NCBI GenBank assembly: GCA_002774365.1
Contig: PEYM01000077.1
Span: 1-48,259, forward strand
Length of the DNA: 48,259 bases
Direction: 5' to 3'
Source: Candidatus Saganbacteria bacterium CG08_land_8_20_14_0_20_45_16
GTDB lineage: Bacteria; Margulisbacteria; WOR-1; O2-12-FULL-45-9
Position numbers and translations under genes: made by a program. Below, one piece after another: positions 29,645 to 36,324 of the stretch; the stretch's first letter is position 1, and each line of letters begins with the position of its first letter. The notes below the pieces were generated by a model that made no database searches, was not told the origin of the DNA, and was given only the letters and a program-made list of their open reading frames with translations.

Positions 29645-29974
29645 ATGAAACCAGGTAGACATTACGAGGATTTTAGGGACCAGAAAAAAATTGAACAAGG
29701 TGGCTTGATCAAGCTCTCTGGCGCTTTTTTGCATGAGCATGAGGCAGAGGTTTTGAACCTTGTTAAGCATGAAGGCAAGCTGGCCGAAGAGAAAAATGCT
29801 GACCATAAGGTAACTAAAATAGAAAAAGCCAATGGAGGCTTTGAAATCGAAACTTCCGACCATAACCTGGCCATTCATATTGGCAAACAATTGCATCACG
29901 CCTACAAAGGCAACCACGAATTTAAGTACCGCAAAGGCGAGAAATATGCCGAGGTCATTTGGAGCAGGGACTGA
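29645..29974 (+). CDS. BCAM0308-like small protein, lacking the zinc-ribbon part
   Basis: This 109-residue protein recalls the C-terminal half of BCAM0308-family proteins: GxIKLSGAFLHEHEAEVLNLVKHE at about 20-43, an IEKANGGFEIETSDHNLAIHIGKQLHHAYKG block, and a closing KYAEVIWSRD. The paired CxxC zinc motifs that family members carry upstream are missing. It begins after GGGAG, 24 bases behind rpsI, and a terminator follows, so it is the last gene of the superoperon. The molecular role is unknown. Linkage suggests a role near the ribosome, but this is inference. Confidence 0.72.
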   Translation: MKPGRHYEDFRDQKKIEQGGLIKLSGAFLHEHEAEVLNLVKHEGKLAEEKNADHKVTKIEKANGGFEIETSDHNLAIHIGKQLHHAYKGNHEFKYRKGEKYAEVIWSRD

Positions 29975-30058
29975 TTTTTTTAGCCACATCCACACCAAAA
30001 TCATCTGAAATTTCCTCCATAACCTGCCGAAACTAAGTTAAGAGGATCAGAGTCATTT

Positions 30059-30100
30059 AAAAGACCTATTTGAGTTCAGCTCAAGTAGGTCTTTTTATTT
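30059..30100 (+). terminator. intrinsic terminator ending the ribosomal superoperon
   Basis: AAGACCTATTTGAG pairs with CTCAAGTAGGTCTT through a 15-bp stem (30060-30074 with 30080-30094, including one G-T) and a five-base loop, followed by TTTTTATTTT. The ribosome site of the next gene begins two bases after the T-tract. The preceding 85 bases (29975-30059) show no clear promoter. Confidence 0.88.
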
Positions 30101-30116
30101 TGAGGAGAGGAAAACA

Positions 30117-31268
30117 GTGGTTACAACCGAAACAATAGGGATTAGTCTAAGGCGAGCGTCTAGTCTGTCCTGGTCAAATCAGACGACTCTTCCATTGGCG
30201 CTGTATTTATTACGTTTAATCCCAACTCGATATGCTTTTCTGTTCGTTATTTTAGCTGCATTCACTGATTGCACGGCTTTTGAATTTACAGATCCGCTTC
30301 CACCATTTACTCAAGTATCAATTAATAGTGGTGCGAGACCGATAAATTCTTCCCTGGCTTGGGCGGATGGCGAATATGGAATAGCCTGGGAGAATGAATA
30401 TAATTGTGACGGCGTGTATGATTGCTACAACCTGGGGATTAATTTTAGGCGTATTTCTGCTGACGGTGCTTTGCCGGGGCCGGAAATTCCCATTGTGCCA
30501 AGTGATAGCCGTGATTTTTATGATCCTTCTTTAGCCTGGACAGGTAATGGTTATGGGCTTGCTTGTGATGATGCTTATGGTCTTTATTTTCAGCTCATCT
30601 CACTTGATGGTGACTTAATCAGTCCCTTAATTCCGGTTACGTCATGGGATAATTTTACTGCTTCAAACCATCCCTCTCTAGTTTGGGCAGGTGCTGAATT
30701 TGGGGTTGCCTGGGAGGCGAGGCCTTCAGGATTTGTTGATCCTTTTTATACTGATATCTGTTTTCAGCGCATTGCGGCAAATGCAGAGCTAGTTGAATCA
30801 ACTGTTTGTATTACAAATGATGGCGATTCGGTGAATCCTTCTTTAGTCTGGACAGGTAGTGGATTTGGGGTGAGTTGGGATGGTGGATATGAGAGTGGTG
30901 TATATCTACAGCGTCTTTCGCCAACAGGAACAATACTCGGTTCCGCGGTTTGTGTTACTGCTAATGGCGAGCCAGCAAGTTCTTCTCTAATATGGGCAGG
31001 AAATAGATACGAGATCAGCTGGGATACTTATTATAGTGATTATCCTGATGGGAACTACCGGATAAGAGGTCGCTCCATTTCGCCAAATGGAGAACCCGGC
31101 CGTTTTCGTAATGTATTTATTTCTGATGGGTGGAGTGACACAGCTAATTTAGTTAATCATTCACTGGTTTGGACTGGTAATGAAGTTGGAGCAAGCTGGT
31201 ATTATCAATCTTATATGAACGGTTCGGTTGGGAATATTTATTTTGCTCATTTTGCTGATGAAGATTAA
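30117..31268 (+). CDS. probable secreted beta-propeller-like repeat protein
   Basis: This 383-residue protein starts at GTG 30117, seven bases after GAGGAGAGG. A hydrophobic region at about 25-55 (LPLALYLLRL, then YAFLFVILAAF) may be a signal peptide, with a possible cut near CTA-FEF, but its n-region is unusually long. Six repeats with consensus SLxWxGxxxGxxW occur near residues 78, 137, 185, 241, 288 and 348, about 47-60 apart, each followed by a segment like RISADG or RLSPTG. This suggests a six-bladed beta-propeller on the cell surface or in the periplasm. No enzyme motif is seen. It is the first gene of the accessory cluster. Confidence 0.75.
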   Translation: MVTTETIGISLRRASSLSWSNQTTLPLALYLLRLIPTRYAFLFVILAAFTDCTAFEFTDPLPPFTQVSINSGARPINSSLAWADGEYGIAWENEYNCDGVYDCYNLGINFRRISADGALPGPEIPIVPSDSRDFYDPSLAWTGNGYGLACDDAYGLYFQLISLDGDLISPLIPVTSWDNFTASNHPSLVWAGAEFGVAWEARPSGFVDPFYTDICFQRIAANAELVESTVCITNDGDSVNPSLVWTGSGFGVSWDGGYESGVYLQRLSPTGTILGSAVCVTANGEPASSSLIWAGNRYEISWDTYYSDYPDGNYRIRGRSISPNGEPGRFRNVFISDGWSDTANLVNHSLVWTGNEVGASWYYQSYMNGSVGNIYFAHFADED

Positions 31269-31286
31269 AAGAGGGGGGAAGGTAAA

Positions 31287-31946
31287 TTGCTAATATTTGG
31301 ATTGCCGTTTTTTATTCCGTTCCAAGCCGGATCATTTAACCAACAGCAGTCCATGCCGGAGGAGGCTGATTCAAGGAGCTATCTTTGCGTATCCCCTGAA
31401 AATGAAATGGACTGGAATGCGGCCCTGCTTGAATTTGCCCATGACCAGTGCCAGCTAAGTCAGCTTAATATTCAACAAGTTCCATCAGAACTTAGAACGG
31501 AATTTATAAATATTAATGGTGGGGGACAGGATAGTACCCCCCGTAGCCAGCGTGTTAATGAATCAGAGGTGCTGGCTGATTGGTTTGATTCTACCTGGGC
31601 ATTTAGCTGGGCAGGAAGTTTGATCAGGTGGTTTGGCGGGGAAGATTATTGCGATGGTTCTTTGATTCGTGTCCGGCCGGAGCAATGGTGTCAGTCTTTA
31701 AGAGAGGTGGTTACGCTGCCTGAACTGCAGCCAGCATCTACGCCTGTTCCTATACCTGTGGTAGTGCAACAACCGTCCGTTGAGCCACTGCCGCCTGTTG
31801 TGTCTCCGTCGCCGCCAGTAAGGCCGAGGCCGATATCAAGACCGCCCATTGTTCAGCCGCCACCGATTATAGAAAGGCCGCCGGTACAGTCGGTGAATCT
31901 GCCAAGGTTACCAGCAAAAACAAGGCCGAGAGTACCTACATTTTAG
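31287..31946 (+). CDS. unknown protein with proline-rich tail
   Basis: I do not recognise this 219-residue protein. It starts at TTG 31287 behind GAGGGGGGAAGG, 18 bases after the propeller gene. The N-terminus is hydrophobic for about 15 residues (MLIFGLPFFIPFQAG) but has no basic n-region, so export is uncertain. Four cysteines lie at YLCV, DQCQ, DYCD and QWCQ. From about residue 140, the chain is very rich in proline (PPxxxPxPP repeats), ending KTRPRVPTF. Such tails often span the periplasm or bind other proteins. Cluster position suggests that it works with its neighbours. Confidence 0.65.
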   Translation: MLIFGLPFFIPFQAGSFNQQQSMPEEADSRSYLCVSPENEMDWNAALLEFAHDQCQLSQLNIQQVPSELRTEFININGGGQDSTPRSQRVNESEVLADWFDSTWAFSWAGSLIRWFGGEDYCDGSLIRVRPEQWCQSLREVVTLPELQPASTPVPIPVVVQQPSVEPLPPVVSPSPPVRPRPISRPPIVQPPPIIERPPVQSVNLPRLPAKTRPRVPTF

Positions 31947-31957
31947 GAGGGATAAAA

Positions 31958-32047
31958 ATGGGAATAAATGAAATATGTGGACAGTCTGTCGTTAGTGTGC
32001 AAATTCTTAATTTGCCGGAAGAAACAACGATTTCTCGTCAAGCCTGA
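31958..32047 (+). pseudogene. 5' fragment ahead of the in-frame TGA
   Basis: ATG 31958 follows an excellent ribosome site (TTTAGGAGGGATAAAA) and opens 29 codons (MGINEICGQSV... ISRQA) ended by TGA at 32045-32047. The same frame then continues without a further stop for 450 codons to 33397. So this is the natural beginning of the next gene, cut by a nonsense codon. A CGA to TGA change (Arg to stop) would explain it. No signal peptide is seen in these residues. Readthrough is an alternative. Confidence 0.7.
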
Positions 32048-32065
32048 AGCGATCTCGAGGATCGC
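32048..32065 (+). promoter_or_regulatory. stem-loop directly after the in-frame TGA
   Basis: GCGATC (32049-32054) and GATCGC (32060-32065) form a perfect 6-bp stem with a TCGAG loop, one base beyond the TGA. It could support stop-codon readthrough, but the loop lies closer to the UGA than in known bacterial SECIS elements, and chance is possible. Confidence 0.3.
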
Positions 32066-32113
32066 GAAGCAATTGCCGAATTATTAGATGAATTTCTAGA
32101 TGTTATTGGCCTA

Positions 32114-33397
32114 TTGGAGGGCTCTTTTGAATTAGGGGAACAAATTCAAACTGTTCTAGAAAATATTTCTTCGACTGCCTTAAGCTTCTATGAAGGGGTT
32201 TTTGAATCTATTGCTCAAGAAACAGGATTAAATATTGATGATATTTCAATGCAAGCTGTTTTTGAACGTTTGCTGAATTTGCTTAGGGAAAATGATTCTC
32301 AAGTAGCTCAAGCCTACAGCACTAGTAGGGATAATCGTCAGGCTGACATAGCAATAGTTTTAGAGATTTTGGAAGATATAAGGCCGGTTTATGCCCGGGC
32401 ACGAAGACAACTAGAGATACCTGTTTCAGCTAGATCTCTGACCCCTGTTTATGAACAACGTATTGCGGATTTGAGACAGCAACTTGAAGATCGCGGTTAT
32501 TCCTTTCCTGACGTTGATTTGAGCAGCAGAGAATCGGTTAGGGAGACAAAAACTGTGATTCAGCGTGCGCTTGTTAATTTGTGTAACCAGTACAATTCAA
32601 TTCTTATTAACATTTCTCCTCCAGTAACTCCTTCATCTATTGAGCCGCCGCATAGAGAGCCACAAGATAGCTGGTTTAGTTTGTATGCTGATTTATTTTT
32701 ACACGGAGAATATTTTAGTTCGGTACCGCAGACTCCTGACGCTTTGAGTGAATGGCGCGGGGCGTTGTTCGGTCATTTAACCTTAGCCGCGGATATTACG
32801 GAGATAGTGCGTTTAGGGGTTTTTGTCAGCTCTGGCCACAGTCTTGGAGAAGGTTGGACATCAAGGGATAGGGACATATATACAGGCGCATTTGTTGATC
32901 GTCATTTCACTCATTCAAGGATTGGCGGTTATGTGGCGGCTTTGTTTTTGCGTAATATTGAGGGGTGGCTGTGGTGGGATGAGGAAACCTTTGCCAACGT
33001 AGGAGCAAGAGGGGCTTTTTTTGATGAGTTGCTCCAAGCGTCTCTTTCTGTCTTATTTGGCACATCAAGTGGGATGTCTCTTTCTCTCGGGTTTCAAGGG
33101 GATGTTGGACGCAGGGATCGGGTTAGATTAGCTGGTGATTTTGATTACGTTTTTGTGGATGGCGGGACAGGTGGGGATTATGCCTGGCATGATATTGGTT
33201 TGTCTTTTCGGGTGGCGCCGCAGATTTCTCGTTCATTTCGCTATGTGGGAGCATTCAGGTTTGTAGCTGTTCTTTGGACCAGCTTTGGTTTGGTTGGAGA
33301 TGAACTTGCCGAATGGAGTCTTGGTCTAAATGTAGGGCTTTCCCTGGGCGATTCTGCCAACTTATATCAACCGCCAGTAGGGCTTGAGAGGTTTTAA
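32114..33397 (+). CDS. beta-strand-rich, barrel-like protein (interrupted upstream by TGA)
   Basis: The open part after the TGA at 32045 covers 450 codons (32048-33394). TTG 32114 is only the first possible internal start and has no ribosome site. Residues 1-190 of the part from 32114 are helical and charged (LENISSTALSFYEGVFESIAQE; a coiled or helical region). The last 235 residues are rich in alternating, aromatic beta strands (FSLYADLFLHGEYF, GGYVAALFLRNI, LSVLFGTSSGMSLSLGFQG, DIGLSFRVAP), like an outer-membrane barrel or autotransporter-type domain. The terminal residue is Phe (GLERF), as in many outer-membrane proteins. The stop overlaps the kinase gene by one base. No family is recognised. 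Confidence 0.62.
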   Translation: MEGSFELGEQIQTVLENISSTALSFYEGVFESIAQETGLNIDDISMQAVFERLLNLLRENDSQVAQAYSTSRDNRQADIAIVLEILEDIRPVYARARRQLEIPVSARSLTPVYEQRIADLRQQLEDRGYSFPDVDLSSRESVRETKTVIQRALVNLCNQYNSILINISPPVTPSSIEPPHREPQDSWFSLYADLFLHGEYFSSVPQTPDALSEWRGALFGHLTLAADITEIVRLGVFVSSGHSLGEGWTSRDRDIYTGAFVDRHFTHSRIGGYVAALFLRNIEGWLWWDEETFANVGARGAFFDELLQASLSVLFGTSSGMSLSLGFQGDVGRRDRVRLAGDFDYVFVDGGTGGDYAWHDIGLSFRVAPQISRSFRYVGAFRFVAVLWTSFGLVGDELAEWSLGLNVGLSLGDSANLYQPPVGLERF

Positions 33398-36324
33398 TGC
33401 CACAATCAGTTACAAATAAACCACAGGCACAAATTCAGTCCCTGCAAAAGAAATGGGATAAATTGCAATATCTTTTGCTGGCCAGGCATATCCTTGCTGT
33501 TAGTGTTGGAACCGCAATAGGACTTGGGTATCTTTTCTTGGGGGAGGGCATAACTACCCCCGGGTTTTCTGTTGTTGCTGGTGCGATTCCAGCCTTGGCG
33601 CTTGAAGTGTTAACTTGGGTGCCTGCTGTGTTTATTAGAGGTATTAAAGAGGAAAATCAGTTTGCAGAACTTAATCGTTTTAGACCTGAAAAGGTTGGAA
33701 CTTTACCTAATCAATTACAGAAAGAAGAGATAAGACAAGCTTCGAAAACAAAAAAATTGCAATCAGACAAAAGGAAACTTGCTGTGACCATTAAGGCTAG
33801 AGAGGATGAACTGGCGCCATTACGGAGTGAAATTGAAGGATTAAAAAGAAATAGCCGTGATTTAACCACAAAAATGCAAGGGTTGGAAGGAGCTGTATTA
33901 TTCGAAAAGGATAAGGCACAAAAACAACTAGGAGAACTTGAAGCAACAAAGAAACAGTTAGAAGCGGTCAAGAATGAGTTAGCCAAGGCAAACAAAGATC
34001 TCAAAGGCAAAAAAAGAGAAATTGATCGATTAAATAAAAATCAGAGGGATATTTCCAATCAACTTATACAAATACAACGAGAACAAGCCGCAAAGGTAAC
34101 CGCTTTACAAGAAGCGGAAAGAAAAATAATAAGTTTGGAAATACAAACGCAACAAGTGCAAACCGCACTACAACAAGCCAACTGGCAAATAGACCAAAAA
34201 GCAGCCTTTGGCGCAGACCCGCAAGACGTCATTCAAATGCAACAGCTTCACCAAGCTTTGCAAACACTTCTTCATACCAGCCGGGCTAGACCATTTAAGA
34301 GGCAAAAAGCACGACTGGTTGTCAGTGAGTCCTTAAGGGGAGATGAAAAGCAACGAAATCTCCTGCGTCAGGTGATTGGTTTATTAAAGCCAGAAGAGCG
34401 AGCTAAGTTGACGCTGAAACCTATTTATGGTGATGGGATAGCTGAAATGGTTAATGAGCTGGATCTCAACACCTGGCCGACAAAAAGATTATTGCTTCGA
34501 TTACGGGATGAAGATGTTATGCCCGTGAAAAAACGGGAGATTCTAGAAGTTTTGCAAGCGAAATTTTCCTATCTAAATTATGCACAGATAAAAAGTTTGA
34601 GGCGTGCGCTTTATCCTTTGTTTGAACTGCCGGAAATTGCCGATGTTGCTACGGCCCTTTTGTCGCGACTTGATCATGAAGAATTAAATAAGGCCTTTGT
34701 CACTTCTCCACAGCTGGCAGTCGAGGACATTGCCACGGCTAACTTGCCGGTTCCATACGACCGCATTAGTGATGCTAAACAAATGATTCAGGAGGTCGTA
34801 GGGGCACATCCAACGCTCGCGGAAACCGGTAAAATTGCTTGTGGGGTTATTGATTATTTATATGGATCAGATAGTCCTGACATATTAATGGCTTTGCTCC
34901 AGTTTTTGAGCGACCCTGCAACAGCAGCCAGCCATAAAAAATTTCTACTTGAAAAAATTATCAGAGGGGATGTTATCTTTGATCATGAGTCAATTGTGGA
35001 AAATGTTAGAACTCTGTTGCAAAGCCTCACAATAATTGCTGAATTACGAGCATTAGCGCTACAGGCACTTAGAAAAGTTATTCCCGCGACTGTTGTAGTT
35101 GATGGCAGTAAACTGCGGGGGGCATTAGGAGAGGGGAACGACCGGGGTGTGGTGGAGGAAATGAGGATAAAAGAGGGTGAATTAAGAGCGGAGCTTAAGA
35201 TTCAAGTAGAATTACAAGCACAACTCCAAGGTCAAGCACAATTAATCGAGAGATTGTCAGAAGAATTGAAAGTTTTCTTGGATGAGGATGAAGACCCTTT
35301 ATTTGACCCGTTTGCTAATGGTCAACAGCCAGCGTCAGTTGTGCCAACATCGCGCGCAATCAGACGAGATGCGCTTCATTCTGCGCCATGGGAGAAAATA
35401 CTTCAGCCCATTCAGGGATACGATCTTTTAAGAGAAATTGCTAGCGGTGGATTTGGTCAGGTTATAGCGGCCATAAATTTAGCTACTGGCAGAGAAGTGA
35501 TGATCAAGCGTATACATCTTCATTTATTGGATGACCTGGATAGTAAAGAGGATAAAAAGAGGGATGATATTTTTAATATTATTAATCGATTTAAAACAGA
35601 AGCTGAAATGCTTATGAGTTTTGCTCATCCTAATGTAATGAAGGTTTTTCGTTGTGAGGTAGAGCTTACTCAAGGCAGGAGGGCGGTTTATTATGAGGGG
35701 GAATTGGTTAAAGGGCCTTTTTTGGCTAAATTAATTAGGAGAAAGAAGTTGTTATCCGTCCCTGAGGCCTTAAATATTCTATATTTTATGGTTCTTGGGC
35801 TAGAAGCTTTGAGCGATGAGAAAAATGGACGTATAAACGCTATTTATCATCGGGATTTAAAACCTGATAATGTAGTGATTACGTCATTCAAACGAAGGTC
35901 TTATGTTAAATTAGTTGATTTTGGCCTGGCAAAACACGTTGCGAGCGATGGCTCACTTACCAGTTTAGGGACAATGGGAGGAACAGCTAACTATCTAGCG
36001 CCTGAAAGTGTTGATTGCGGCTTAAAAGGACTAGATCATCACGCGGATATTTATGCCTTAGCCCTGATTTTATATAAAATGTTAACTGGAAAGTTGCCGC
36101 GCAAATTTGAGGGGCAAGCGAAGGAGATATGGGTTGGTTTTGTCGACTGGGCAAGAAATAAAGCAAAGCCGACTTTTAGTTATGCGCAACTGGAGCAGTT
36201 TTCTCCAGCGATTCAATTATTATTGAGTAATATGGGGGAGAAAAATGTTGAATATAGGATTAATAGCTATCGTGGAATACGAGAGATGATTGAGCAGATA
36301 TTAATTCAGGGCGTAACAGCCTAA
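33397..36324 (+). CDS. membrane-anchored Ser/Thr protein kinase with coiled coil
   Basis: This 975-residue protein has two membrane segments at about 30-48 and 56-80 joined by a short loop, so both ends should be cytoplasmic. A long coiled coil spans about 95-275. A helical middle, perhaps HEAT-like, covers about 285-590. The C-terminal Hanks-type kinase (about 670-970) has glycine loop SGGFGQV (683-689), Lys704 (VMIK), HRDLKPDN (818-825), DFG (841-843) and APE (868-870), so it should be active. Placing the kinase at the C-terminus, with sensing parts in the cytoplasm, is the reverse of PknB-type receptors. It overlaps the barrel-like gene by one base. Targets are unknown; cluster neighbours or ribosomal factors are guesses. 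Confidence 0.88.
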   Translation: MPQSVTNKPQAQIQSLQKKWDKLQYLLLARHILAVSVGTAIGLGYLFLGEGITTPGFSVVAGAIPALALEVLTWVPAVFIRGIKEENQFAELNRFRPEKVGTLPNQLQKEEIRQASKTKKLQSDKRKLAVTIKAREDELAPLRSEIEGLKRNSRDLTTKMQGLEGAVLFEKDKAQKQLGELEATKKQLEAVKNELAKANKDLKGKKREIDRLNKNQRDISNQLIQIQREQAAKVTALQEAERKIISLEIQTQQVQTALQQANWQIDQKAAFGADPQDVIQMQQLHQALQTLLHTSRARPFKRQKARLVVSESLRGDEKQRNLLRQVIGLLKPEERAKLTLKPIYGDGIAEMVNELDLNTWPTKRLLLRLRDEDVMPVKKREILEVLQAKFSYLNYAQIKSLRRALYPLFELPEIADVATALLSRLDHEELNKAFVTSPQLAVEDIATANLPVPYDRISDAKQMIQEVVGAHPTLAETGKIACGVIDYLYGSDSPDILMALLQFLSDPATAASHKKFLLEKIIRGDVIFDHESIVENVRTLLQSLTIIAELRALALQALRKVIPATVVVDGSKLRGALGEGNDRGVVEEMRIKEGELRAELKIQVELQAQLQGQAQLIERLSEELKVFLDEDEDPLFDPFANGQQPASVVPTSRAIRRDALHSAPWEKILQPIQGYDLLREIASGGFGQVIAAINLATGREVMIKRIHLHLLDDLDSKEDKKRDDIFNIINRFKTEAEMLMSFAHPNVMKVFRCEVELTQGRRAVYYEGELVKGPFLAKLIRRKKLLSVPEALNILYFMVLGLEALSDEKNGRINAIYHRDLKPDNVVITSFKRRSYVKLVDFGLAKHVASDGSLTSLGTMGGTANYLAPESVDCGLKGLDHHADIYALALILYKMLTGKLPRKFEGQAKEIWVGFVDWARNKAKPTFSYAQLEQFSPAIQLLLSNMGEKNVEYRINSYRGIREMIEQILIQGVTA

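Follow-up and report, generated by a model that had tools for sequence, protein, structure and literature searches.

What do four adjacent, unassigned genes of Candidatus Saganbacteria bacterium CG08_land_8_20_14_0_20_45_16 encode, and do they belong together? The genes lie at positions 30117–36324 of contig PEYM01000077.1, a stretch of 48,259 nucleotides (hereafter the window) that is contig C13 of a 1.78-Mb draft genome, 95% complete, whose rpoB shares 81% identity with that of Candidatus Saganbacteria bacterium NC_groundwater_1859. Saganbacteria are a little-known, uncultured candidate group close to Cyanobacteria. An earlier note on this DNA had described the genes as an envelope-linked module consisting of a propeller-like repeat protein, a Pro-rich protein, a barrel-like protein and a membrane serine/threonine (Ser/Thr) kinase. 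The conserved gene order, the 12-stranded barrel model and the transmembrane-hairpin kinase found across our survey bear this out, and that the module is real and linked to the envelope is well supported. Whether the four genes constitute a trans-envelope Ser/Thr-kinase signalling module specific to the class Saganbacteria (WOR-1) is evenly balanced in our judgement; its signalling direction, ligand and substrates are what we infer below.

Conservation of the module in the class Saganbacteria

The open reading frame (ORF) listing placed all four genes at 30117–36324 on the plus strand, as previously described, and the gaps of 18 and 11 bases followed by a one-base overlap (TAATG) are correct provided that gene 3 starts at ATG 31958. 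A collinear but strongly diverged module is present in the same genome (C80; L041), consisting of the leader, a gene-1-type protein, gene 2, gene 3 and the kinase. Comparison of the two copies revealed identities of 47% for gene 2, 30% for gene 3 and 32% for the kinase, and the overlap between gene 3 and the kinase is one base in both. A third copy in this genome (C20) was joined through profiles. When a single gene-3 sequence was searched against 94 relatives, the C80 copy alone was returned, and stepwise profiles were needed. The pairwise chain of gene-3 proteins runs from the window to C80, from C80 to G008, from G008 to G003 and from G003 to C20, with expectation (E) values of 1e-10 to 1e-35. 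The proteins of G028, G006, G025, G029 and G004 were joined by profiles, and those of G010, G012 and G021 were entered by position and architecture and included in the 13-sequence profile; the G010 protein afterwards reached E 2.9e-4 in a local profile, and the membership of G021 rests mainly on position and on its gene 2. The 13-sequence profile detected 14 loci in 12 of the 31 genomes of the class, from 11 genera; 43 genomes from elsewhere in the phylum and 309 further genomes gave no match. The gene 3 of G018, found by this profile alone (E 1.4e-5), begins with MNVSQIC, and a gene 2 precedes it as expected; since its contig ends inside gene 3, downstream counts use 13 loci.

At all 13 gene-3 loci with an assembled flank (ten genera), a Ser/Thr kinase on a transmembrane hairpin lies directly downstream on the same strand, with two such kinases in tandem in G006. 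Upstream of gene 3, a protein with a Cys-bearing domain, usually with a Pro-rich tail, is found across the module loci. Comparison of the loci at the sequence level thus showed that the order of Cys/Pro-rich protein, barrel protein and hairpin kinase is conserved, with a surface-type protein linked in most loci. The earlier note had proposed beforehand that finding the genes together in several lineages would speak for a system, and that scattering in relatives or ordinary, unrelated annotations would speak against one; the core genes prove not to be scattered, and genes 1–3 remain unrecognised, with no match above cut-off in Pfam, NCBIfam, PHROGs or PADLOC. Phage and plasmid searches were negative. 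In a kinase tree the module kinases cluster (7 changes, against a mean of 12.4 on shuffling), a value reached by 1 of 1000 shuffles.

Within the module, the leader upstream of gene 1 changes most slowly. This element of ~97 bp shows 85% identity between the window and C80 (L041 8772–8866), with 43 nt identical, whereas the coding DNA of the two copies is merely 43–55% identical; therefore, selection or gene conversion acts on the leader. The two copies are the only ones in the 1.78-Mb genome. The 3' end forms a perfect 17-bp hairpin (-22.2 kcal/mol, z -7.6) followed by a T-run, so that the leader looks like a terminator placed inside an operon leader; an Rfam search at this position gave no match. 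The palindrome had been interpreted earlier as the terminator of the upstream superoperon. Its terminator-like character holds, and it is additionally an element specific to the module, where it probably controls operon expression via premature termination.

The modules of C20, G006 and G021 adjoin parA, plus rsmG and/or parB (names read from the sequences, without a family search); such a setting is what vertical inheritance would lead one to expect and suggests an ancestral locus. Another transmembrane-hairpin kinase locus, with Cys-containing proteins upstream and no barrel, occurs in G029 (L169 714–5519) and may be a reduced relative of the module.

Predicted structure of gene 3

Two Cys residues are kept throughout the gene-3 family, one close to the N-terminus (at position 7 in most members) and the other closing the helical domain, after which a Pro linker and Gly-rich strands follow. 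The structure of the G008 homologue, predicted by AlphaFold with a 13-sequence alignment, has a predicted local distance difference test (pLDDT) score of 81 and consists of ten helices and exactly twelve strands. A Foldseek search with this model returned the barrel of the Hbp autotransporter as the top match (E 5.8e-7), together with BrkA, PcoB, KdgM, OmpG and porins. The TM-scores on the targets range from 0.2 to 0.6, so the fold class is clear and the nearest relative is not. The gene 3 product of the window aligns to the same structural elements. Modelling thus showed that in this family an N-domain of helices, about 225 residues long, is joined by a Pro linker to a barrel of the outer-membrane type with 12 predicted strands, and the earlier description of gene 3 as barrel-like is upheld. 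The terminal Phe, formerly taken as a barrel signature, is not conserved: the last residue is Arg in the C80 protein and F, Y, R or Q in homologues. A weak match of the helical domain to FliS in a sequence search of solved structures (E 0.0026) was provisionally treated as chance.

The kinase

The kinase domain of gene 4 (Pfam PF00069, E 1.1e-36) occupies the C-terminus (aa 675–956), behind a transmembrane hairpin (aa 32–80), a coiled coil and a helical region, in agreement with the earlier assignment as a membrane-hairpin Ser/Thr kinase. The glycine loop, HRD and DFG motifs are intact. HRD and DFG-type motifs and two transmembrane segments are present in 14 of 14 module kinases, and the glycine-loop pattern, as searched, is missing in two. 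Judged from the sequence, both ends of the kinase should be cytoplasmic.

In C80, the kinase is followed by a 413-aa protein (L041 1692–2933) with four (D/E/G)T(E/V)(L/F/Y)DPR (TxxDPR) repeats and a hydrophobic hairpin, which is a plausible candidate for a kinase target. The TxxD motif is linked to binding by forkhead-associated (FHA) domains. In two genomes, the kinase is followed by a conserved small protein that is helical (xxPQEKLxxDxxxFLEVY; L150 6857–7096 and L178 6366–6647).

The surface-type protein and gene 2

Gene 1 begins with a 38-aa N-terminal extension and a hydrophobic segment ending in Asp-Cys (lipobox-like), followed by six 'SLxWxGxxxGxxW' repeats at a spacing of about 50–60 aa, which make the earlier term propeller-like a fair one. 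A search of solved structures by sequence gave no match for gene 1. Its N-terminal region is common to three C80 proteins and occurs nowhere else in the genome; used as a four-sequence profile, it matched no other genome. Behind this N-terminus, the gene-1-type proteins of C80 carry MopE-like metal-binding motifs just below the Pfam cut-off. The Cys that ends the hydrophobic segment is preceded by Asp in the window and C80 and lies in TIGC/AIGC or ITSC in G010, G012 and G004; in G028 and G029, a hydrophobic segment with a lipobox Cys is absent. Gene-1-type proteins with acidic Asp/Pro stalks adjoin the kinase in C80, G004, G010, G012, G025, G028 and G029; outside the window and C80, the gene-1 position often lies after the kinase. 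The surface protein is the most variable member of the module. Near a G-rich run (ATGGGGGTGG; L041 8270–8340), a frameshift splits one gene-1 paralogue of C80, for which phase variation, decay or assembly error are possible explanations. Secreted fibre-like proteins (VPQYxxYQGxLRD...) with Sec signals adjoin four modules (G004, G025, G028 and G029), sometimes on the opposite strand.

Gene 2, 47% identical to the C80 copy, is Pro-rich as stated earlier. The gene-2 profile joins seven members (window, C80, C20, G008, G003, G028 and G021) that share the Cys-bearing domain; the tail is Pro-rich in most and helical in the C20 member. The gene-2 equivalents of G004, G006, G010, G012 and G018 were assigned by position and have lipoprotein-type signals at the N-terminus. 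Used as a two-sequence profile, gene 2 matched no other genome; a degenerate-peptide scan of GTDB genomes found nothing, nor did a scan of viral contigs in which the N-terminus of gene 1 was included alongside gene 2. From its sequence pattern, gene 2 was considered as a LysM-like protein, a reading that lacked Pfam support.

Proposed mechanism of signalling

The module parts are predicted to extend from the surface of the cell into the cytoplasm, and the kinase itself has hardly any periplasmic domain. Most simply read, the outer parts would act as the sensor of the kinase. Gene 3 would be an outer-membrane protein whose helical domain lies in the periplasm, and gene 2, a lipoprotein in several relatives, would be a periplasmic tether. 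Gene 1 would be anchored at the surface and bear a ligand-binding or adhesive part that differs between loci; a variable outer protein on a constant core fits a receptor family. A ligand, a contact or envelope damage might then alter the assembly of genes 1, 3 and 2, and this alteration could reach the short periplasmic loop of the kinase hairpin and bring kinases together. The clustered kinases would switch on the phosphorylation of cytoplasmic targets, among which the 413-aa protein of C80 is one candidate. If this holds, Saganbacteria would connect their cell surface to Ser/Thr kinases in a manner peculiar to themselves, and the three copies in this genome, with their variable outer parts, would resemble a receptor repertoire.

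Several points weigh against this signalling reading. Contact between the module proteins is a postulate, and the kinase domain is the sole part recognised by Pfam, NCBIfam or PADLOC. The kinase exposes merely about 10–15 residues to the periplasm. The 12-stranded model is that of the G008 homologue, the prediction for the window protein from a two-sequence alignment having a pLDDT of 42. A signal peptide of the Sec type is missing from all 14 gene-3 proteins, a point that the earlier note overlooked, so the route of gene 3 to the outer membrane is unexplained, and some members of the gene-1 and gene-2 families are likewise without a Sec-type signal. Moreover, gene 3 of the window is cut by an in-frame TGA, so this copy of the module may be inactive.

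Alternative explanations

The in-frame TGA bears on a rival that falls somewhat short of an even chance, in which the window copy is a decaying paralogue whose operon makes gene 1, gene 2 and the kinase without the barrel, the module being real elsewhere. The gene-3 start at ATG 31958 is preceded by AGGAGGG and is assigned because the C80 homologue begins with the same MGINEIC; from this start, the TGA (32045–32047), missed in the earlier note, is codon 30. The longest uninterrupted ORF begins at TTG 32114, before which there is no good restart and which itself lacks a ribosome site. No selenocysteine tRNA (tRNA-Sec) exceeded the Rfam cut-off in the 95% complete genome, the best matches being ordinary tRNAs, and selenocysteine readthrough was therefore ruled out. 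A small perfect stem (GCGATC-TCGAG-GATCGC) directly follows the TGA; the hairpin just 3' of the TGA is no better than in shuffled sequence (z -0.6). With readthrough by tRNA-Sec excluded, the TGA is most likely, from the sequence, a recent nonsense mutation or a consensus error. The frameshift in the gene-1 paralogue on C80 also favours decay. Set against it, the 449-codon frame contains no other stop and still matches the family profile, whose alignment crosses '1 TGA', and the kinase motifs are intact, so that a break, if there is one, would have arisen recently. The conservation of the leader is strong, and a consensus or assembly error is possible in a metagenome bin.

Control from the inside outward is a less probable, indeed unlikely, explanation, in which the kinase governs how a surface structure is built or displayed. 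The gene-1 protein would have in gene 3 a dedicated port or anchor at the outer membrane and in gene 2 a guide through the periplasm, and phosphorylation would time or gate assembly. The best matches of the gene-3 barrel to autotransporter barrels favour it, as do the cargo-like variability of the surface protein, often with a long acidic stalk, and the fibre-like proteins adjoining four modules. However, an usher, a chaperone and an ATPase are absent from the module, the gene-1 protein encoded in the window itself carries a Sec-like hydrophobic segment, and the N-domain of the barrel protein is helical with no plug predicted.

A third possibility, which we consider doubtful, is that the modules use a new Sec-independent sorting route, based on the N-terminal invariant-Cys motif, for the barrel proteins and some partners, with the hairpin kinase controlling or sensing their assembly. 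All 14 gene-3 proteins begin with a short motif ending in Cys, mostly M-x-[IV]-x-x-[IV]-C, and the best 10-aa hydropathy at their N-termini is 0.05–1.75, versus 2.4–3.6 for ordinary exported proteins of this genome. How a predicted outer-membrane barrel leaves the cytoplasm without a Sec signal is a question that the module raises; such a route, if true, would be part of an envelope machine that is specific to the class and falls under no secretion or signalling system so far described. The N-terminus of gene 3 (MGINEICGQSVVSVQILNLP; window 31958–32044) also resembles that of a C80 gene-1 protein (MGITELLGISNNININLP; L041 1580–1666), the two proteins being otherwise unrelated, and the resemblance possibly reflects a shared targeting motif.

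A defence or competition module, with the kinase acting on invaders as in kinase-based anti-phage systems, is very improbable. The kinase domains match the PADLOC kinase defence models (PD-T4-6, MAD6), but these matches cover the generic kinase domain alone and genes 1–3 match nothing; an outer-membrane barrel with surface partners is foreign to such systems, and the C20, G006 and G021 modules lie beside parA, not in islands. The partner genes of PD-T4-6, MADS and BREX PglW were not matched in PADLOC, and assignment to a defence system was rejected. Finally, chance neighbourhood without a functional link, which could appeal to the lack of any known annotation common to the genes, is next to inconceivable, because order, overlap and leader recur in C80 and the order recurs in relatives, with the kinase directly downstream at 13 of 13 flanked gene-3 loci.

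Comparison with known systems

On its best reading, the set would be a trans-envelope kinase signalling module that works in the manner of TagQRST-PpkA without being a member of that system. In TagQRST-PpkA, the threonine-phosphorylation pathway of type VI secretion in Pseudomonas, a lipoprotein of the outer membrane and a protein of the periplasm act via an inner-membrane Ser/Thr kinase, TagQ and TagR serving as the sensor for PpkA and envelope damage being the signal (PMC11881912). An inner-membrane Hanks-type kinase is common to both, the kinase motifs and the transmembrane hairpin being present in all 14 module kinases. In contrast, the modules have a 12-strand barrel protein that is absent from the TagQRST description, and they have neither a TagS/TagT ABC pair nor a TagR gene. 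Among the ORFs listed for the module contigs and the window, no Fha or type VI secretion genes were recognised; a genome-wide search was not made.

Like the type Va autotransporters Hbp and BrkA, gene 3 has, in the model, a 12-strand C-terminal barrel after an N-terminal domain. It differs from them in lacking a cleavable N-terminal Sec signal (0/14) and in having a helical rather than beta-helical N-domain, a Pro-rich linker and a constant operon with a kinase. No Pfam autotransporter family matched gene 3 of the window at E up to 1, or the homologues at up to 0.1–1. The small channels KdgM/NanC and PcoB share the 12 strands and the fold (TM-score up to 0.59 on target) but are single-domain proteins, without the helical N-domain of gene 3. 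The kinase resembles the PASTA kinases PrkC and PknB in being a Hanks-type kinase fixed in the inner membrane, and the NCBIfam PknB model matches its domain, albeit with a score of 127.9 against a cut-off of 450. Unlike in them, the kinase domain lies at the C-terminus, behind a hairpin of two helices, and the protein has neither a PASTA match nor an external sensor domain.

Going by the libraries and papers searched, the kinase is ordinary, and the combination and the three other protein families are undescribed. The earlier statement that no described system has this gene set accords with these searches, and a published account of Saganbacterial kinases or envelopes was not found in the literature searched. 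An unannotated gene set thereby becomes a defined, lineage-specific module with three unmatched protein families.

Features of the locus

The features of the module and of related loci are listed in Table 1.

Table 1. Coordinates of the module in the window and of features at related loci
Feature	Position	Strand	Description
Leader before gene 1	29999–30101	+	17-bp hairpin 30059–30095 and T-run at end
Gene 1	30117–31268	+	383 aa, GTG start; exported protein, six propeller-like repeats
Gene 2	31287–31946	+	219 aa, TTG start; weakly hydrophobic N-terminus, Cys-bearing domain, Pro-rich tail
Gene 3	31958–33397	+	MGINEIC N-terminus, helical domain, Pro linker, predicted 12-strand barrel; in-frame TGA
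In-frame TGA of gene 3	32045–32047	+	nonsense mutation, assembly error or unexplained readthrough
Helical domain of gene 3	about 32078–32599	+	projected from the model of the G008 homologue
Pro linker of gene 3	about 32612–32665	+	projected from the model of the G008 homologue
Predicted 12-strand barrel of gene 3	about 32675–33349	+	projected from the model of the G008 homologue
Gene 4	33397–36324	+	975 aa, Ser/Thr kinase on transmembrane hairpin
Fibre-like proteins	L154 9490–10317; L184 10237–11397; L193 10671–11504; L195 5548–7890		
Modules beside parA	L046 10179–15268; L194 2728–7978; L168 5097–8403		

Between the ribosomal genes and the module, the window also encodes a 109-aa protein (29645–29974) that is similar to the BCAM0308 family (E 3.5e-22, below the NCBIfam cut-off).

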